Of a DNA stretch of 13,537 nt, positions 2,876-13,224 are shown piece by piece. How positions within the stretch are numbered: position 1 is the stretch's first letter; every line of letters starts with the position of its first letter. This DNA comes from Syntrophaceae bacterium (GTDB taxonomy: Bacteria; Desulfobacterota; Syntrophorhabdia; Syntrophorhabdales; WCHB1-27). Both the position numbers and the translations under genes were made by a program. The stretch covers positions 1-13,537 of the forward strand of contig PLSJ01000117.1 of assembly GCA_003165115.1 (NCBI GenBank), given 5' to 3'. A model generated the notes under the pieces. It did no database searches and was not told where the DNA came from. It saw only the letters and a program-made list of their open reading frames with translations.

Positions 2876-3613
2876 TCAACCACCCGGCCCCGAGGAGGCA
2901 AGGCCGTAGAATTCTCCCTGCCGCACGCTCGCCACGATCACCTGCCCGCCTCCCGTATGGCGGCCCACGGCCGCCGCCAGGCGCGGCACCGATTCCCGAT
3001 CCCCGCAGGCATCATACTTGTTGAGCACGACGACGTACCCGGCCCTATCGACGCCCTTCATGAGCGCATCCCCTTCGAAGAGCCTCACGAAGACCGGGGC
3101 CGTAATCTCTGTGTCGGGCGACAGTCCCGTCACCCGGCGGAAAAGCTCCTGCCTGAAGACTGCCTGCGCGATCGTAAGGCCCAGGGCATCGAGGCCCGCA
3201 ACCACCACGGTGAGGCCCGAGCACGGTGGAATTACGGGCTCGTGGGCCGCGGGGTACTTCAACGGCAGCCCTTTCGCGCCGTCCGCCTCGACGAGCACGA
3301 GGTCGTACTCCCTTCGCAGCGCCTCAACGTCGCCGGGGTCGATCCCCGTCAGCTTTCCCTGTTCCACGGACTTGCCCATCCGGACGAATCGCCGGCCTTT
3401 CCCGCTTTTTTCCGGGTCGCGGTCGCCGAAGATCGTGTATGGTTCCTTCGCCCATATGTGCGTGGTGGTTGTCATCACCACCAGTTTTCCTTGTCCGGCG
3501 GCCGCCTGTCCGAGATATTCCGCGAGGGATGTTTTACCGCCCCCACCGACGAAGCTTATGACGTCTTCGCCGAGCAGGAAGGGGAGAGGGTCGATCCTTT
3601 CAAGATACCACAT
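2876..3613 (-). CDS. yqeC: Selenium-dependent hydroxylase accessory protein YqeC
   Basis: A 245-residue protein of the YqeC family, which is associated with maturation of selenium-dependent molybdenum hydroxylases, typically alongside YqeB and SelD. Visible features are a glycine-rich P-loop-like VGGGGKTS (22-29), the family's TTTTHI (48-53), LVEADGAKGLPLK (107-119) and NKYD (198-201), together suggesting nucleotide binding. Start chosen: ATG 3613. An upstream in-frame TTG at 3649 would add 12 residues with no family resemblance. ATG 3613 lies inside the end of the DUF2007 gene (14-nt overlap) and has no Shine-Dalgarno sequence of its own, so translation probably depends on reinitiation. Last gene of the queD operon. 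It implies that a molybdenum hydroxylase and selenium metabolism exist elsewhere in this genome. Confidence 0.85.
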   Translation of the reverse strand: MWYLERIDPLPFLLGEDVISFVGGGGKTSLAEYLGQAAAGQGKLVVMTTTTHIWAKEPYTIFGDRDPEKSGKGRRFVRMGKSVEQGKLTGIDPGDVEALRREYDLVLVEADGAKGLPLKYPAAHEPVIPPCSGLTVVVAGLDALGLTIAQAVFRQELFRRVTGLSPDTEITAPVFVRLFEGDALMKGVDRAGYVVVLNKYDACGDRESVPRLAAAVGRHTGGGQVIVASVRQGEFYGLASSGPGG

Positions 3614-3842
3614 AGGGCATGTTCTTGATGCTTGTGATGATGGCGGCAACGCGCTGCTCGTCCTTTTCCTTCACGAACAAGGAGGCGTAGCCCTTCTGGA
3701 GGATGAAAAGCCCGTCGTAGGCCGTATCCTTATGCTCTTTCACGACATACTCGATCGATTCTCTCTCGAGGGCGGCTTTCAGCATATCCATCTCGAAGAT
3801 GCTTTCGATGGTATGAGCTTTAACCCACCTATCTGAAGCCAT
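3600..3842 (-). CDS. DUF2007 (putative signal-transducing) small protein
   Basis: An 80-residue soluble protein with the DUF2007 layout: a beta strand (WVKAHTI), a helix over residues 17-28 (MDMLKAALERES), the turn EYVVKEHKDTAYDG, and a second helix EKDEQRVAAIITSI. The family is small, widespread and without an established biochemical role, although the name 'putative signal transducing protein' is in use. The start ATG 3842 follows GAAGGA by 4 nt and overlaps the end of the lipoprotein gene by 14 nt; its own stop overlaps yqeC, also by 14 nt. It sits mid-operon between the lipoprotein and yqeC. The family assignment is moderately sure; the function is unknown. Confidence 0.72.
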   Translation of the reverse strand: MASDRWVKAHTIESIFEMDMLKAALERESIEYVVKEHKDTAYDGLFILQKGYASLFVKEKDEQRVAAIITSIKNMPYVVS

Positions 3843-4299
3843 TTTCCTTCGATGCGGGCGACGCCTGAGCGGCCCTGTCTACGGGACCGACCCATATCTC
3901 GACCTGGGTGGTGAACGTCTCTCTCTTTGTCCTGATATTGGAGGCCCGGTCTTCCTTGATGAAATTCAAGATCATGTCGCCATACTTGTAACTATTGACG
4001 AAGCGCCACCCGTTCTTGACCATGTTGACCTTAAAGTACGTCTCCAGGGAACCGACGTCGACGTTTCCGGTCAAGACGAGCACACCCGCCTTCACGTTGG
4101 GCGTTTCATAGATAAAGCTCTTTTCCCTTTGAAAATCGAGTTCCTTGGGGACGGGAATGTCGGGGAACGTGTAAAAAACCGTATTCGAGACCTCGTTCTT
4201 AGACGTCCCTTTCTGCTCCTGCACCGTCACCTGCCGGGACGTCGCGCATCCCCCCATGAAAAGCAGCGCTGCCGCAAGAACAACAACCCATTTCTTCAT
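3829..4299 (-). CDS. Uncharacterised lipoprotein
   Basis: A 156-residue protein with a short lipoprotein signal peptide: KK at positions 2-3, hydrophobic VVVLAAALLF, then MGGC with the lipidated Cys at 18. Met at -3 is less usual than Leu. A Ser/Thr/Lys-rich linker follows (about 20-38), then a small folded domain with FPDIPVPKEL, LVLTGNVDVGSLETYF and MVKNGWRFVNSYKYG. The mix of short strands and one amphipathic helix resembles small alpha/beta periplasmic lipoprotein domains, but I recognise no characterised family. Start chosen: ATG 4299, which overlaps the folE2 stop as ATGA and is preceded by GGAGGGGAG; an upstream in-frame ATG at 4332 would bury the signal peptide. Why a surface lipoprotein lies in a queuosine/selenium operon is unclear. 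Confidence 0.8.
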   Translation of the reverse strand: MKKWVVVLAAALLFMGGCATSRQVTVQEQKGTSKNEVSNTVFYTFPDIPVPKELDFQREKSFIYETPNVKAGVLVLTGNVDVGSLETYFKVNMVKNGWRFVNSYKYGDMILNFIKEDRASNIRTKRETFTTQVEIWVGPVDRAAQASPASKENGFR

Positions 4300-5087
4300 G
4301 CCTCCCCTCCCTCGTTTTCTCTCTCCAAACATGCATAGGCGCTATGGTTGTGGATGCTCTCGAAGTTCTCCGCCTCTACGATAAAATGGGTAATATTCTG
4401 ACTGGCGCTCAGCTTTTCCGCCACCTCTCTTGCGACGTCCTCCACGAACTTGGGGTTCTCGAAGGCCTTCTCCGTCACGAACTTCTCATCCTGCCTCTTG
4501 AGTACCGAGTAAATCTCGCAGCTCGAACAGCCCTCGATAAGGGAGATCAGGTCTTCTATCCAGAAGAAACGCCTGAATTGCACCTTGATGGTCACCACGC
4601 CTCTCTGGTTGTGCGCCCCGTGGTCACTTATTTCCTTCGAGCAAGGGCAGAGCGTCGTCACGGGGACCGACACGCTGACGGTAAAGTCTTTCATGCTGTT
4701 TTGGCCGTCCAGGTGGCCGGAAAAACCGCACATATACTCAAGATACCCCGCCGTGCCGGATACAGGCGCCTCCTTTCTTATGAAGTACGGGAAGCGGACC
4801 TCCATGTGGGCCGACTCGGCATTCAGCCTTCCCTTCATTTCCCCCAGGATCGCAGGGAAATCCTTCATGTTGATCGTGTTTTTGTGGGCGTGCAGTATCT
4901 CGACAAATCTGCTCATGTGCGTCCCCTTGTACTCCTGGGGAAGACTCACGTACATGCTTATCTCGGCGATGGTGTGCTGGAAGCCGTTTCTCTTGTCGAG
5001 GACAACTATCGGGTACTTCACATTCTTGACTCCCACCTTGTCTATCTTGATATTGCGGGAGTCGTGCATGTTCTGCACGTCTTTCAT
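4296..5087 (-). CDS. folE2: GTP cyclohydrolase IB (FolE2)
   Basis: A 263-residue protein of the FolE2/MptA type, which converts GTP to 7,8-dihydroneopterin triphosphate, the entry step for folate and for preQ0/queuosine. The family core is present: FQHTIAEISMYVSLP (36-50), then TTLCPCSKEISDHGAHNQRG (144-163). C147, H159, E201 and H246 are the best candidates for the metal site. FolE2 enzymes are unrelated in sequence to FolE and can use metals other than zinc, so they are often linked to low-zinc conditions; no Zur-like site is obvious here. ATG 5087 starts 6 nt after the queD stop, with AGGGAA upstream. The stop TGA overlaps the lipoprotein start (ATGA). Adjacent queD uses its product directly. 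Confidence 0.95.
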   Translation of the reverse strand: MKDVQNMHDSRNIKIDKVGVKNVKYPIVVLDKRNGFQHTIAEISMYVSLPQEYKGTHMSRFVEILHAHKNTINMKDFPAILGEMKGRLNAESAHMEVRFPYFIRKEAPVSGTAGYLEYMCGFSGHLDGQNSMKDFTVSVSVPVTTLCPCSKEISDHGAHNQRGVVTIKVQFRRFFWIEDLISLIEGCSSCEIYSVLKRQDEKFVTEKAFENPKFVEDVAREVAEKLSASQNITHFIVEAENFESIHNHSAYACLERENEGGEA

Positions 5088-5093
5088 ATCGAC

Positions 5094-5462
5094 CTATTCC
5101 CTGTACGCCGCATAGGCATTATCCGATTCCCATACGCGCACCTCTTTCACCACGACATGTTCCTTGCCGACCAGTTCGGCCAGACGGCCGTATATGTAAA
5201 ACGCGAGGTACTCGGCCGAGCTCGCCCTCTCTTTGAAGAACGGGATTTCGTTGATGTACTTGTGGTCGAGTTCGGCGACCACTTCCCGCAGCATCGCTTT
5301 GAGGACCGCGAAATCGAGAACCATCCCGTCTTCGCCGACCCGCTCGCCCTCGAAGAGGGCCTCCACCCTGAAATTGTGTCCGTGCAGCTCCTCGCACTTG
5401 CCATGATACAACTCGATCTTATGGGCAGCGGCAAAGGTTTCTCTCACGAAGAGGGCGAACAT
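5094..5462 (-). CDS. queD: 6-carboxy-tetrahydropterin synthase QueD
   Basis: A 122-residue protein of the 6-pyruvoyl-tetrahydropterin synthase fold. It probably turns dihydroneopterin triphosphate into 6-carboxy-tetrahydropterin for 7-deazaguanine (queuosine) synthesis. Zinc ligands are H14 (AAAHKI), H27 and H29 (CEELHGHN); the catalytic set is C23, D66 and H67 (ELDHKYIN); the pterin anchor is E112 (VWESDNAYAAY). Length is normal for the family. PTPS paralogues can also serve folate synthesis in place of FolB; the intact CxxxHGH motif favours QueD, but dual use is possible. ATG 5462 is the only usable start because an in-frame TAG lies 10-12 nt upstream. There is no Shine-Dalgarno sequence. 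First gene of the five-gene operon; queE and queC are not in the window. Confidence 0.93.
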   Translation of the reverse strand: MFALFVRETFAAAHKIELYHGKCEELHGHNFRVEALFEGERVGEDGMVLDFAVLKAMLREVVAELDHKYINEIPFFKERASSAEYLAFYIYGRLAELVGKEHVVVKEVRVWESDNAYAAYRE

Positions 5463-5497: not shown

Positions 5498-5572
5498 CAT
5501 GGAAAACAGGCGTGGCAAGGCGGGGAATCATAGCAGTTGTAAAAGTTGTTTCTTTTAGTTACACTTGAACAC

Positions 5573-6184
5573 ATGTTCGTTACCGACGGCACATCAAACT
5601 ATGACAGGGTCTGCGAGGAGCTGCTGGGCCTCGTGTGGAAAACGGGGGCCGTCGCCAATGCGCCTGTCCTTTTAGGGAGCGTCGAAGAAGGGGCCGCCTG
5701 TATCCCCCTTTTCGGAGAGGTCTGCCGCGTCCGCCGCGACGGCGTTTACAAGGATGCGGCGAGGCTCGATACCATCGGCTCGATCCTTGTCGTGAGGTAC
5801 CTGCTCACGGCGGGTACCGTACAGATACGGCATACCTGGCTGCCCTACCGGGATTTGAAGGACGGGGCGCAGTTCTCGGGGTTCATCAAGGCCAACATAG
5901 AGGACAAGATAGCCGGGGCGTTCCAGGGAAAGCGCGAGGCCTTGGCCGAGCGGTTGTCGGCGCTCGGCGCCGTCGCGTGCGCGGAAGAGGTGCAGAGCGA
6001 TATCGCGCTGGTCGTCCATCCCCTGCCGAAAGTGCCCGTGCTCTGTCTTTTCCAGGACGCCGACGAGGAGTTTCCCGCGTCGTTCCAGTTCCTCTTCGAC
6101 GGCTCCGCTCCCTCGTACCTCGATTTGGAGGCACTCGCCGCCACGCTTCAGTACATCTACCTGAAATTGATTGGAGAAGCATGA
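5573..6184 (+). CDS. DUF3786 domain protein
   Basis: A 203-residue soluble protein matching the DUF3786 family, common in anaerobic bacteria and archaea and uncharacterised. The most typical part is the C-terminus: LCLFQDADEEFPASFQFLFD followed by APSYLDLEALAATLQYIYLKL. Earlier features are IPLFGEVCRVRRDG near residues 44-57 and VVRYLLTAGTV near 78-88. There is no signal peptide or membrane segment. ATG 5573 is preferred over an in-frame TTG at 5546 that would add nine residues; neither has a clear Shine-Dalgarno sequence. The last codons overlap the next start as ATGA (6181-6184), so it should be translationally coupled to the receiver-LpxC fusion, which makes a functional connection plausible. 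Its mechanism cannot be inferred. Confidence 0.82.
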   Translation: MFVTDGTSNYDRVCEELLGLVWKTGAVANAPVLLGSVEEGAACIPLFGEVCRVRRDGVYKDAARLDTIGSILVVRYLLTAGTVQIRHTWLPYRDLKDGAQFSGFIKANIEDKIAGAFQGKREALAERLSALGAVACAEEVQSDIALVVHPLPKVPVLCLFQDADEEFPASFQFLFDGSAPSYLDLEALAATLQYIYLKLIGEA

Positions 6185-7440
6185 CAAAAGTTCTTATTAT
6201 CGATGACGAAAAACCCATCCTCGAAAGCCTTTCCTCGATCCTCCTCGAAGAAGGATTCGCCGTCTGTACCGCCAAAGACGGCAAAGAAGGACTGGCCATT
6301 TTCAAAAAGGAAAAGCCCAGGATCGTCCTTCTCGACATATGGATGCCCGAGATGGACGGTCTCGAAGTGTTGAGACTGGTACGGGAAACCGATCCGGAAG
6401 CGGTGGTCATCGTTATTTCGGGCCACGGCACCATCTCGACCGCCGTCGAAGCGGTGAAGCTGGGCGCGACCGATTTCCTCGAAAAGCCCCTCTCCATAGA
6501 CAAGGTGCTCGAGGTAATTTCGAGAGGGCTCGCGGGCGGCAACAATGGCAAGGAGAGGACAGGCGATGACGTGCGGATCGAGATCGCGAGGGGCTTCGAG
6601 GGGTGCAGGCAAAAGACCATCGGCAAGAGCATCGTGGCCTATGGGATGGGCCTCTTTTCGGGCGTGAAGACCGGGATGATCCTGCTGCCCATGCCGCCCG
6701 GCACGGGGATAATCTTCGAACAGGTGCCGGAGGGCGAGCGCATACCCGCCTTTGTCGACTATGTCTACTCTTCCGGGAACGCATCGTCTATAAAAGGCAA
6801 GAGCTGCACCATCACCACGGTCGAGCATCTCCTCGCCACGTGCCACATGTACGGGATTACGAACCTCCTGGTGAAGATAAGCGACGAAGTGCCCATTTTT
6901 GACGGGTCGGCGCAGGAGATCTGCAACAAGATAGAAGAAGCGGGCATTATCGAGCAGAACCAGGGCATAGAACCCCTGGTCGTAAAGAAGAAGATCGTCC
7001 TCCGGAACCTGCCCGACGGCAAGTACCTCTCGATAGAACCGGCCAGCGAACTTGAGATCGATTACAGGCTGGATCAGCCCCGGCCCATCGGCGTACAGCA
7101 GTACGTATTCCGGGGCGGGAAGAGCGCCTTCCTGCGGGAGATCGCCCCCGCCCGCACCTTCGGCTCCATAAAGGACTTCGAAAGGCTTGAAAAAATGGGG
7201 CTCGCCGCGGGAAGCCGCGTGAGCAGCGTCATGAGCAACGTGATACTCCTCAACAACGAGGAAGTGATCAATACGGATTTGAGGTTCCCCGATGAGTTCG
7301 TGAGGCATAAAATCCTCGACCTGATCGGAGACCTTTACCTTATCACCCGCCCTGTCATAGGGAAAGTGGTCGCGCGCCAGACCGGGCACCTGGAGAATAT
7401 CGCCCTGGTAAAAGAGCTGAAACAGGCCTTTTGCCGGTAA
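6181..7440 (+). CDS. Response-regulator receiver domain fused to LpxC-family deacetylase
   Basis: A 419-residue fusion. Residues 1-118 form a complete receiver of NtrX/NtrC type: acidic pair D8-D9, phospho-acceptor D52 (LLDIWMPEMDG), switch S80 (ISGHGT), F99 and K102 (DFLEKP). After a hydrophilic linker (119-135), residues ~142-419 form an LpxC domain. LpxC removes acetate from UDP-3-O-acyl-GlcNAc, the committed step of lipid A synthesis. Expected residues are present: E215-H216 (TVEH), T326 (ARTF), H376, K377 and D380 (VRHKILDLIGDLY), H403 (GH). Differences: the usual G-[IL]-H-[ST]-G has Phe (F159), the glycine loop after ARTF is altered and about three residues longer, and the C-terminal tail is very short. 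Start ATG 6181 overlaps the DUF3786 stop. The fold is certain; the substrate is likely but could differ from standard LpxC. Confidence 0.93.
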   Translation: MTKVLIIDDEKPILESLSSILLEEGFAVCTAKDGKEGLAIFKKEKPRIVLLDIWMPEMDGLEVLRLVRETDPEAVVIVISGHGTISTAVEAVKLGATDFLEKPLSIDKVLEVISRGLAGGNNGKERTGDDVRIEIARGFEGCRQKTIGKSIVAYGMGLFSGVKTGMILLPMPPGTGIIFEQVPEGERIPAFVDYVYSSGNASSIKGKSCTITTVEHLLATCHMYGITNLLVKISDEVPIFDGSAQEICNKIEEAGIIEQNQGIEPLVVKKKIVLRNLPDGKYLSIEPASELEIDYRLDQPRPIGVQQYVFRGGKSAFLREIAPARTFGSIKDFERLEKMGLAAGSRVSSVMSNVILLNNEEVINTDLRFPDEFVRHKILDLIGDLYLITRPVIGKVVARQTGHLENIALVKELKQAFCR

Positions 7441-10117: not shown

Positions 10118-10786
10118 TCACCCCCGCAGCCTTTTTCTGATGCCCATGAGGCCGACCAGCCCCGGCGCGAAAAGGAGCAGGGCAGGCGGCAGGGGCACGG
10201 GAGGGTCGGAAAACTGGTTTTCTAAATAATGCATGCCGGACACCCCTCCCGAGAGCGAGTCGCCTGCGTTCATGGTGATGTCATCGACGACATAGAGACT
10301 CTTATAATAGGATGGTAACAAACCCGACATGGTCTGGAAGGTGCCGGATTGGGTCACCGTGACCGTCAGCGTGGCCAGCTTCGTTGTCTCCGTGGAGTCG
10401 GTGTAGACGCGCTCGATCACCGTCGCGGAGCCGTTGCTGCCTATTTCGGCGCTGAACCCCAGGAGAACGTTGTTTATCGCCATGGGGACCGATGCCGGTA
10501 TGTTGACGGAGAAGGAGGTCTGGACGTTCGGGATGAAGCTGTAGACCGGGCTCAAATTCACAAAAGCAAGTCCGGGCCCCACAAGCGGCGTGTTGACGGG
10601 TATGACGCTGATGGCGGAGGCCCCTATGTCGGAACTGCATCCAAAATTGGTGAACGTCCCGCTATCTATCGTTGCCCCCGGTGTGTTGATCAGGTCTGCC
10701 AGGGTTGTCGCCTCCGCGCTGCCGATCAGGGCGAAAGACACCAGAAAAACAGTTAACAACAAGTCCATGGCAACATGCTTTCTCAT
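10118..10786 (-). CDS. Exported protein with VPLPPA-type PEP-CTERM sorting tail
   Basis: A 222-residue secreted protein. The N-terminal signal (RKHVAMDLLLTVFLVSFALI, cleavage probably after AEA near residue 26) leads into a Thr/Ser/Asn-rich, beta-rich domain of unknown type with few Lys. The C-terminus has the three-part sorting signal of PEP-CTERM proteins: VPLPPA, a hydrophobic stretch LLLFAPGLVGLMGI, and the basic end RKRLRG. In known systems this tail is processed by an exosortase, and such proteins accompany exopolysaccharide or biofilm loci. No exosortase is in the window. Start chosen: ATG 10786, with AGGAGGG upstream at good spacing; the adjacent GTG at 10789 is too close. A ~300-nt leader with a GEMM-like riboswitch precedes it. 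Confidence 0.87.
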   Translation of the reverse strand: MRKHVAMDLLLTVFLVSFALIGSAEATTLADLINTPGATIDSGTFTNFGCSSDIGASAISVIPVNTPLVGPGLAFVNLSPVYSFIPNVQTSFSVNIPASVPMAINNVLLGFSAEIGSNGSATVIERVYTDSTETTKLATLTVTVTQSGTFQTMSGLLPSYYKSLYVVDDITMNAGDSLSGGVSGMHYLENQFSDPPVPLPPALLLFAPGLVGLMGIRKRLRG

Positions 10787-10815
10787 CACTCCCTCCTGTC
10801 GAATTACTCCTCGTT

Positions 10816-11316: not shown

Positions 11317-13224
11317 TTATCCCTTTTTCAGGCCGTCGACCATCAATTGCGCCAGGCTTTTCGCGAACGCGGCGGGGTCCTTGGGCCTCGACCCTTCGAG
11401 GAGGAGCGCCTGGTCGTAGATGAGCTTCACGTATTCCTTCAGGACCGGGCTCTTCCCGTCACGTTCGAAGAGTTCGTTCATCGCGGCGAAGAGCGCGTGG
11501 TCGGGGTTTGTTTCCAGTATCTTCTTGCTGTCGGGCACGTTCTGCCCCATGGACCTGAGTATCTTCTCCATCTGCGGGTTGAGGTCGCCTTCGTCGGTCA
11601 CGAGGAGACAAACGGAATCCCGGAGCCTTCCCGAAAGGCGCACGTCCTTTACCTGGTCGGCGAGCTCTTCCTTGATCAGGTCGATCAACTTTTGGTATTT
11701 TTCCTGTGTCTTTTCCTTCTCCGCCTTATCCGTCTTGTTCAGGTCGACGTCCCCCGCGATGATGGACCTGAGACGTTTTCCCTTATACTCGAAACCGGTC
11801 ATCACGAGGTCGTCGACCTCGTCGAGCATGATGAGGACTTCGAAGTCCTTCGCGCGGAACGCCTCCAGGTAGGGCGATTTCACCGCCTCTTCAAAAGAGG
11901 GCGCGGGCATGTAGTAGATGTGCTCCTGCCCTTCCTTCATGTCGTCCACGTACTCCCCGAGCGTCCTCCTTTTCCCCTCTTCGGCAATTGTCGAGGGGAA
12001 AAGGAGGAGGTCCGCGATGGTCTCCTTCCTCGTGAAGTCGTAGTAGAGACCCTCTTTCAGCACGGAGCCCGACTGTTTGTAGAAGGCGAGGTACTCGTCG
12101 TATGCGTCCTTCTTGAGCTCGCCGAACGTCTCGAGCACCTTCTTGATGATGTTGTTCCTTATGACCTCGACCTGCCTGTTGTTTTGCAGGATCTCGCGCG
12201 ACACGTTGAGGGGGAGGTCGGAGGAATCGACCACGCCCTTGACGAAGCGGAGGTACAAAGGAAGCAGCTCCTCGCAGTGGTCCATGATCTTCACGCGCTT
12301 CACGTAAAGCATGGGGCCTATCTTGTAATCCTTGTGAAAGATGTCGTGGGAGACCTTTTTCGGGATGTAGAGCAGGGCCGTAAACTCGGAGGTGCCTTCG
12401 GCCTTGTAGTGGATCACCTTGAGCGGCTCTTCCGGGTCGTGGGAGATGTGCTCGTAAAACTGGGTATACTCCTCAGCGGTAATCTCTGATTTCTCCCGCA
12501 GCCAGAGGGCCTTGCGCGAATTGAGCGTCATGTCCTCCCTGAGCTTCACGGTTTTCGATTTGTCCAGCTCGCTCTGCTTCTCCCTTTCCACCTCCATCAC
12601 GACCGGGTGCTCGATAAAATCGGAGTAGCGGTGGACAACGTCCTGTAGCTCCCATTCTTCCAGGTACTGTTTCTCGTCCTCCCTCAGATGGAGGACAACG
12701 TCCGTCCCCTTCCCCTTCTTCTCCATGTCCTCGACGGTGAATGCGCCGTCGCCCGTCGATTCCCATTTGACGCCCATATCGCCCTTCGATCCCGCCTTCC
12801 TCGAAAGGACCGTGATCCGGCCGGCGACCATGAAAGAAGAATAGAAACCCACCCCGAACTGGCCTATCAATTCGGGGTTGTCCTTGATATCCTTGTCCCG
12901 CAGGGTCTGGAGGAATTCCTTGGTCCCCGAGCGTGCGATCGTCCCCAGGGCCTCTACCGCCTCGTCTTTCGTCATGCCGATCCCGTTGTCACTCACGGTA
13001 AGGGTCCCCTTCTCCTTATCCGGCGTAATCCTGATCGTCCATTCCTTATCGTTCTCCTGGATGCCGGCGTCCGTGAGCGCCTCGTAACGCGCGCGGTCTA
13101 TCGCGTCCGACGCATTGGAAATAAGCTCCCTGAGAAAGACTTCCTTATGCGAATAAAGCGAATGTATCATGAGATCGAGCAACTGCTTGATCTCGGTTTT
13201 GAATTCTCGCGTCTCTACGGTCAT
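11317..13224 (-). CDS. htpG: Chaperone HtpG (bacterial Hsp90)
   Basis: A 635-residue cytosolic ATP-dependent chaperone that remodels client proteins as a dimer. The N-terminal GHKL ATPase is intact: catalytic E33 and Mg-binding N37 in LRELISNASDAIDRA, DNGIGM (79-84), GTIARSGTKEF (94-104) as the lid, GQFGVGFYSSFMVA (121-134) and GTDVVLHL. The middle domain contains PLNVSREILQNN with the ATP-sensing Arg, and the C-terminus has the dimerisation region (MEKILRSMGQ onward). Length is typical. The ATG follows AGGAGGAAGAATACCG, a clear Shine-Dalgarno. Same strand as the PEP-CTERM gene but separated by 500 nt with its own promoter, so probably monocistronic. No CIRCE element or sigma-32-type promoter is obvious. 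Confidence 0.98.
   Translation of the reverse strand: MTVETREFKTEIKQLLDLMIHSLYSHKEVFLRELISNASDAIDRARYEALTDAGIQENDKEWTIRITPDKEKGTLTVSDNGIGMTKDEAVEALGTIARSGTKEFLQTLRDKDIKDNPELIGQFGVGFYSSFMVAGRITVLSRKAGSKGDMGVKWESTGDGAFTVEDMEKKGKGTDVVLHLREDEKQYLEEWELQDVVHRYSDFIEHPVVMEVEREKQSELDKSKTVKLREDMTLNSRKALWLREKSEITAEEYTQFYEHISHDPEEPLKVIHYKAEGTSEFTALLYIPKKVSHDIFHKDYKIGPMLYVKRVKIMDHCEELLPLYLRFVKGVVDSSDLPLNVSREILQNNRQVEVIRNNIIKKVLETFGELKKDAYDEYLAFYKQSGSVLKEGLYYDFTRKETIADLLLFPSTIAEEGKRRTLGEYVDDMKEGQEHIYYMPAPSFEEAVKSPYLEAFRAKDFEVLIMLDEVDDLVMTGFEYKGKRLRSIIAGDVDLNKTDKAEKEKTQEKYQKLIDLIKEELADQVKDVRLSGRLRDSVCLLVTDEGDLNPQMEKILRSMGQNVPDSKKILETNPDHALFAAMNELFERDGKSPVLKEYVKLIYDQALLLEGSRPKDPAAFAKSLAQLMVDGLKKG

Follow-up and report, generated by a model that had tools for sequence, protein, structure and literature searches.

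The stretch of DNA considered here (the window) comprises positions 1 to 13,537 of contig PLSJ01000117.1 of a Syntrophaceae bacterium (assembly GCA_003165115.1), and the subject of this analysis is a gene within it that joins a response regulator receiver to LpxC, the enzyme of the committed step of lipid A synthesis. The coding sequence (6181..7440, plus strand, as are all of its features below) is a single uninterrupted open reading frame (ORF) of 419 amino acids, with an ATG at 6181, a stop codon at 7438-7440 and no internal stops. It begins with a receiver (amino acids 4-113; 6190..6519) that scores 105 bits against the Pfam Response_reg model (cut-off 30.2), continues through a linker between the Pfam domains (amino acids 114-143; 6520..6609) and ends with an LpxC deacetylase domain (amino acids 144-414; 6610..7422) that scores 245.9 bits against Pfam LpxC (PF03331, cut-off 27) and 206.7 bits against the NCBIfam lpxC model TIGR00325 (cut-off 187.25). 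Among the NCBIfam regulator models, NtrX (NF051870) matches the receiver best at 124.2 bits, a score that covers the receiver only and lies below the equivalog cut-off of 600, and RssB follows at 96.7 bits. The description of the receiver as NtrX-like in the preliminary description of this DNA thus holds. By Pfam scan, the sigma-54 AAA+ domain, the GAFTGA motif and the Fis-type helix-turn-helix (HTH) are absent from the window protein.

The residues expected of both activities are in place. D8, D9, D52, S80 and K102 make up the DD, D, T/S and K set of a phospho-accepting response regulator, with D52 (codon 6334..6336) as the predicted phospho-acceptor, and all five are invariant in an alignment of 15 diverse fused proteins. 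In the LpxC domain, E215-H216 (6823..6828), H376-K377..D380 (7306..7320), D384 and H403 (7387..7389) are invariant among the same 15 proteins and in a second alignment of 76 sequences; in E. coli LpxC, E215-H216 corresponds to E78-H79, H376-K377..D380 to H238-K239..D242 and H403 to H265. The residues named in the preliminary description are all where it had located them; K377 and D384 are added here. An AlphaFold model of the fusion has a mean pLDDT of 87.4 and a pTM of 0.88, with linker residues 120-132 below a pLDDT of 50. The protein has the LpxC fold; in a structure comparison (VIA) of 50 rows LpxC chains rank first and receivers last, and among 60 of 132 PDB matches the best stretch always lies within one of the two domains.

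This architecture is confirmed as real and is far wider than one gene. Among 7,936 matches, the 120 listed are all annotated as Response_reg plus LpxC, at 66-95% identity. Source names of close matches point to MAGs of Syntrophorhabdales or Syntrophorhabdaceae, which makes Syntrophorhabdales the probable order of the window's organism. In the order to which the organism belongs, 43 of 46 genomes contain a match and 42 of these matches begin in the receiver, the 43rd (G314) covering residues 180-417 only. Across the phylum, surveyed through an even sample of 297 genomes, 68 genomes carry the fused LpxC clade, which was counted by hand as a match of at least 250 bits, the next match below scoring 170 bits. 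The match spans receiver and LpxC in 33 of the 68, is cut by a contig end in one (G217), where the receiver is visible by eye, and covers the LpxC part alone in 34; when these 34 loci were fetched, 32 had an uninterrupted receiver with the five phosphorylation residues, which brings the clade members with an uninterrupted receiver to 66 of 68. The other two are draft assemblies in which an assembly error is possible: in one the receiver is broken by an in-frame stop (locus L323, genome G104), and in the other only its second half is present (L326, G083). The possibility that the window gene is two genes run together by a frameshift or a faulty assembly was considered and rejected. Beyond the damaged receivers of those two relatives nothing speaks for it, and nothing at all in the window; because relatives share the architecture, in 120 of 120 listed matches and 42 of the 43 matching genomes of the order, a misjoin is ruled out, and we give this explanation practically no credence.

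Fourteen of the 68 fused proteins have the layout receiver-AAA-LpxC and the remainder that of receiver-linker-LpxC. The fused gene is usually the only LpxC: it is the sole PF03331 gene in 65 of the 68 genomes and in 11 of 14 named fused genomes, and the check for a second stand-alone lpxC that the preliminary description had proposed found none in the window's own metagenome-assembled genome, which is 75% complete. In G208, G252 and Desulfopila (loci L102, L135 and L144) a long-branched receiver-LpxC occurs alongside a canonical LpxC and is a candidate duplicate that may have a different role. Named carriers include records of Deltaproteobacteria, Thermodesulfovibrionia, Desulfomonile, Desulfopila, Nitrospinota, Thermoanaerobaculales, Holophagae and Terriglobia; they come from 80 of 593 stretches, and their counts are not frequencies. 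In Acidobacteriota, fused-clade matches are rare, with 3 among 119 genomes (the N-terminus of one, G428, lay outside the reading).

The distribution of the fusion follows a single branch of the LpxC tree. A maximum-likelihood tree was built from 102 LpxC domains with the receiver and linker excluded (own-order and unfused rows were thinned, and some genomes appear twice), and in it the 66 fused rows form one side of a single branch against the 36 unfused rows, with an SH-aLRT of 99. The fused LpxC is 33-42% identical to the listed unfused LpxCs of the same phylum. Within the fused side, receiver-only and receiver-AAA forms are intermixed, with four changes over three states, a pattern that fits repeated loss of the AAA domain, the direction of change being unproven by the tree.

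The receiver-AAA forms appear to be intermediates that document what became of the regulator. In three of them scanned against the NCBIfam regulator models, NtrX is the best match (345, 264 and 242 bits). Eleven unfused NtrX proteins were aligned with 10 fused receiver-AAA-LpxC proteins, seven of which come from the 68 sampled genomes and three from the named ones (L087 and L096 were left out, and L103 was removed as not being NtrX). GAFTGA or GSFTGA is present in 10 of 11 unfused and 0 of 10 fused proteins, and the Walker B DE in 11 of 11 and 0 of 10, while the Walker A lysine is present in all, unfused and fused (10/10) alike. When the 14 receiver-AAA forms from the phylum sample were checked by pattern, the picture was the same: GAFTGA and the Walker B DE were missing throughout, and every protein had a Walker A. 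L087 and L096 likewise do not have the GAFTGA and Walker B patterns. Mean pairwise identity is 0.65 among unfused and 0.60 among fused proteins for the receiver, 0.69 against 0.33 for the AAA domain and 0.56 against 0.34 for the HTH. The loss of motifs together with the low AAA and HTH identity, while the receiver is held, indicates that the DNA-directed part is under relaxed constraint after fusion. This bears on the idea that the fused protein is mainly a regulator in trans, with LpxC as a sensor whose binding of substrate or product would act back, through the receiver as a reporter, on NtrY or on the expression of genes. Signaling in either direction could be reconciled with a sensor joined to an effector, and the AAA-containing forms do keep Walker A in 10 of 10, but even the forms that retain the AAA domain have lost GAFTGA and Walker B and have a diverged HTH, and most fused proteins have neither AAA nor HTH and thus no visible output to DNA. 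We regard such a role as highly improbable.

The receiver itself is strictly conserved. All 212 scored fused rows have D8, D9, D52, S/T80 and K102, and none departs from W54, G81, H82 and P103 (214 rows minus P0069 and P0100, which have no receiver start; P0021 and P0022, with truncated starts, were excluded, and some genomes appear twice). Loci L315-L333 were scored apart, 16 of 17 being complete and L326 not, with L323 and L329 read by eye.

The genomic neighborhood of lpxC in relatives that do not have the fusion indicates where the receiver may have come from. Twenty unfused loci were fetched from the same phylum, picked from the best-scoring list, and neighboring genes were counted only if identified by homology or family scan. 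In 11 of the 20, an NtrY-type and an NtrX-type gene adjoin lpxC with at most one ORF between, and in 10 (L266, L269, L271, L273, L275 and L280-L284) lpxC, ntrY and ntrX lie on one strand, which predicts NtrYX control of lpxC in these genomes as well. At L266 the order is RuvC-RuvA-RuvB-(176 aa)-lpxC-DUF4390-ntrY-ntrX, the Ruv names being our assignment by eye. L266 and L273 encode an NtrX that is complete as a sigma-54 activator, comprising receiver, Sigma54_activat, lid and HTH_8, and in L266, L273 and L282 the protein matches NCBIfam's NtrX model best, at 498-520 bits, under the cut-off of 600. On the fused side, the gene immediately before the fusion is ntrY in 15 of 49 loci read outside the order (4/19 in L085-L104 without L103, 6/13 in L118-L130, 2/3 in L133-L135 and 3/14 in L315-L328) and in 3 of 14 named loci (L136-L149); for L119 and L121, where the locus reading has no LpxC gene call, judgment was made from the homology search. 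Some loci, such as L102, end at a contig edge near the fusion, and a missing neighbor there says little. Five fusion-adjacent kinases were scanned and all feature NtrY_N, HAMP, PAS, HisKA and HATPase_c. A DUF4390 gene comes before ntrY in L120 and L137, which are fused, as well as in unfused L266, and this shared order points to one neighborhood in two states, lpxC-DUF4390-ntrY-ntrX and DUF4390-ntrY-ntrX::lpxC.

Genome content agrees with this. A separate NtrX at E<=1e-135 is found in 2 of the 68 fused genomes compared to 201 of the 229 unfused genomes; among the remaining fused genomes 13 have weak NtrX matches (about 1e-121 to 1e-125) and 53 have none at 1e-120, and among the remaining unfused genomes 5 have weak matches and 23 none. 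NtrY at E<=1e-80 is found in 66 of the 68 fused genomes and in 199 of the 229 unfused ones. With a separate NtrX rare and NtrY kept, the fused protein appears to stand in for NtrX. One fused genome (G285, locus L129) features, besides the fused LpxC, a separate NtrY-NtrX pair whose genes are adjacent on contig C3.

In the order of the window's organism, one NtrY-like kinase is found in 44 of 46 genomes (E<=1e-40). In the 20 of its loci that were read, three recurrent gene families precede the kinase (in 14, 13 and 17 loci) and one follows it (in 12 loci), the flanking families in L255 being SelA, RluD-like, PgeF-like and SmpB, and no receiver motif was found in a gene adjoining the kinase. The copy in the window's own genome (G000:C97:3-1220) has HAMP, PAS, HisKA and HATPase_c; it is cut by the contig end, with the NtrY_N part off the contig. 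Beside this kinase, in the place where relatives have SmpB, an integrase-like ORF and other mobile-element ORFs were noted by eye (L246, 2254-8132).

The enzyme half of the fusion differs from unfused LpxC in its C-terminus. The preliminary description had remarked that the window protein has no long C-terminal tail, and this is borne out: 16 residues follow H403, and the tail after the last conserved motif is 11-20 residues in fused and 16-177 in unfused proteins, with medians of 13 (85 receiver-LpxC rows), 14 (12 receiver-AAA rows) and 42 (47 unfused rows, some from other phyla). Gain of the receiver thus goes with loss of the tail. Some unfused tails end in VSASA or VPASA, and the unfused tails are possibly protease signals. 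The unfused LpxCs of L002, L004 and L007 end in tails like ...SFELLKQVSASA, which the fused proteins do not have. A search for LapB by PF18073 gave matches in 44 of the order's 46 genomes and none in the window's own genome; control genomes such as those of Bacillus, Lactococcus and Thermotoga, Gram-positive ones among them, match as well, and most of the matched ORFs are about 440-480 amino acids long and are probably RadA. The short tails would suit a receiver that serves as a phosphorylation-dependent stability or protease-adaptor element in place of the C-terminal tail, with catalysis untouched. In E. coli and Pseudomonas, LpxC is regulated mainly through its protein level, according to excerpts of PMC3333781 and PMC12444477. 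No degron or protease partner was identified in this analysis, and we consider this explanation rather unlikely. RssB provides a precedent for a receiver protein acting through proteolysis, and against a special meaning of the short tails, unfused LpxCs of other groups, such as that of Aquifex, are also short-tailed.

Taken together, these observations make it fairly probable that an NtrX-derived receiver has been placed on LpxC and that NtrY phosphorylates it, thereby directly setting the activity or lifetime of the enzyme. The ancestral cluster would have been lpxC-(DUF4390)-ntrY-ntrX, in which NtrX worked as a conventional sigma-54 activator. A single lineage would then have joined NtrX to the N-terminus of LpxC, after which the AAA+ and DNA-binding parts of the regulator would have decayed and, in most lines, been lost, while the receiver stayed competent for phosphorylation and the NtrY kinase was kept. 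NtrY would sense a periplasmic or membrane signal and phosphorylate (or dephosphorylate) D52, which would shift the packing or dimerization of the receiver against LpxC and so set deacetylase activity or protein lifetime, with direct control taking the place of transcriptional control by NtrX. The preliminary description had left two outcomes side by side, a two-component input on the committed lipid A step or on a related amide substrate. The former stands as the best-supported reading; nothing points to the latter, and the presence of LpxB in 44 of the order's 46 genomes, the window's own included, makes ordinary lipid A synthesis the more likely business of the enzyme.

Several points weigh against this proposal. 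It comes from sequence comparison, and it is by such comparison that we infer the direction of events, the role of NtrY as the kinase within the order, phosphorylation of the receiver and its effect on LpxC. The sequence of events cannot be read off the tree, and through shared descent the contrast between fused and unfused genomes is close to one evolutionary event and not 68, so the Fisher values are not independent. The phylum searches scored the five best first-look candidates per genome for NtrX and the three best for NtrY, and at E<=1e-80 NtrY was not found in the fused genomes G239 and G245. Two fused genomes (G208 and G285) keep a separate strong NtrX, and a second PF03331 gene is present in G047, G208 and G252, as well as in three of the 14 named fused genomes, where one of the additional matches is partial; in such genomes the fusion is no plain replacement. 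Finally, in the organism's own order NtrY lies beside the fusion in 0 of 20 loci read, the window included, and the pairing there consequently rests on the sole NtrY-like kinase and on relatives. The same want of a neighboring kinase, in all 20 loci within the order and in 34 of 49 outside it (some of them cut by contig ends), is what would be expected if the receiver were a passive scaffold, used for dimerization or for membrane or partner targeting and no longer signaling; receivers often dimerize. However, the phosphorylation residues along with W54, G81, H82 and P103 are invariant in every scored row while the AAA+ domain decayed freely, and NtrY is retained in nearly all fused genomes (66/68), and a mere scaffold therefore seems to us a doubtful account with little chance of being right.

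The immediate surroundings of the gene in the window add local context. A DUF3786 gene (5546..6184, plus strand; Pfam) lies upstream and overlaps the start of the fusion as ATGA. The same overlap is present in L132, of the same family, and in L131, of the same family and another genus, the fusion again comes after a DUF3786 gene, an arrangement that suggests that the DUF3786 protein, whose function is unassigned, is co-translated with the fusion. No kinase was found among the 10 window proteins scanned with Pfam; the scan did not include the gene at 11317-13224, which we take by eye to be HtpG, a PEP-CTERM-like ORF and an ORF at 3600-3842. The PEP-CTERM-like ORF (10118-10789, minus strand) appears by eye to encode a secreted protein with the ending VPLPPALLLFAPGLVGLMGIRKRLRG. 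Elsewhere in the window, at 2876-3649 and 4296-5462 on the minus strand, genes for YqeC (selenium cofactor), FolE2 and a QueD-like protein lie close together, FolE2 scoring above its NCBIfam cut-off and QueD just under.

Compared to LpxC as defined by PF03331 and TIGR00325, the fused form adds an N-terminal receiver, forms a separate clade and has a short C-terminus. It resembles NtrX in that its receiver matches the NtrX model best, its intermediates have a recognizable NtrX AAA+ domain and NtrY adjoins some of its genes; it differs in that the window protein has no sigma-54 AAA+, GAFTGA or HTH, and its output is an enzyme. Response regulators with enzyme outputs are well known from CheB and PleD, in which the receiver switches the fused enzyme, but the literature searched yielded no description of LpxC in the role of output domain. 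A link between regulators and lpxC also exists outside the fusion, as alphaproteobacterial NtrYX and DVU2934 demonstrate. Excerpts of PMC7240162 and PMC12444477 report that lpxC is expressed at a lower level under the action of NtrYX in Rhodobacter sphaeroides and Caulobacter; this is the same two-component family and the same enzyme, but control there is at the transcript level, and in R. sphaeroides is thought to be indirect, whereas here the receiver is within the enzyme. By analogy with these two alphaproteobacteria, fused control may restrain LpxC. For the Desulfovibrio vulgaris regulator DVU2934, lpxC is the single target reported in excerpts of PMC3333781 and PMC4114195, and the former places lpxC of Syntrophobacter fumaroxidans directly upstream of the operon of the orthologous regulator. 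DVU2934 is thus a sulfate-reducer response regulator aimed at lpxC, but it is separate, DNA-binding and transcriptional. The control of E. coli LpxC by FtsH, LapB and YejM, as outlined in the excerpted part of PMC12444477, is post-translational like that proposed here, but uses the C-terminal tail that is absent from the fused form.

Thus, enzyme-output regulators and transcriptional two-component control of LpxC are known, while a receiver within LpxC was not found reported. No LpxC-receiver fusion is mentioned in the titles and abstract openings listed by the searches of the open-licence PMC literature (CC0, CC BY or CC BY-SA), which is not to claim its absence from print, and in the part of a 2025 review of lipid A regulation that was available (PMC12444477) the terms 'fused', 'fusion' and 'response regulator' occur zero times. 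Databases already hold Response_reg plus LpxC as a domain annotation. On balance we lean towards regarding the fused protein as part of a two-component system with LpxC itself as the output, which would be the first known of its sort.

Lipid A synthesis is controlled chiefly at LpxC, which is also an antibiotic target, and little is known of how this enzyme is controlled beyond a few model groups. The comparison presented here names a regulator (the NtrX receiver) and, as its probable kinase, NtrY; it also traces a likely path by which transcriptional control gave way to direct control, and intermediates along it survive today. If the proposal is true, it would document how a regulator that bound DNA lost its output and became part of its own neighbor and probable target, and an external signal could set the committed enzyme of lipid A synthesis directly. 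The comparison also makes the control of lipopolysaccharide supply in these bacteria directly testable, with one protein pair, one aspartate and one enzyme assay.

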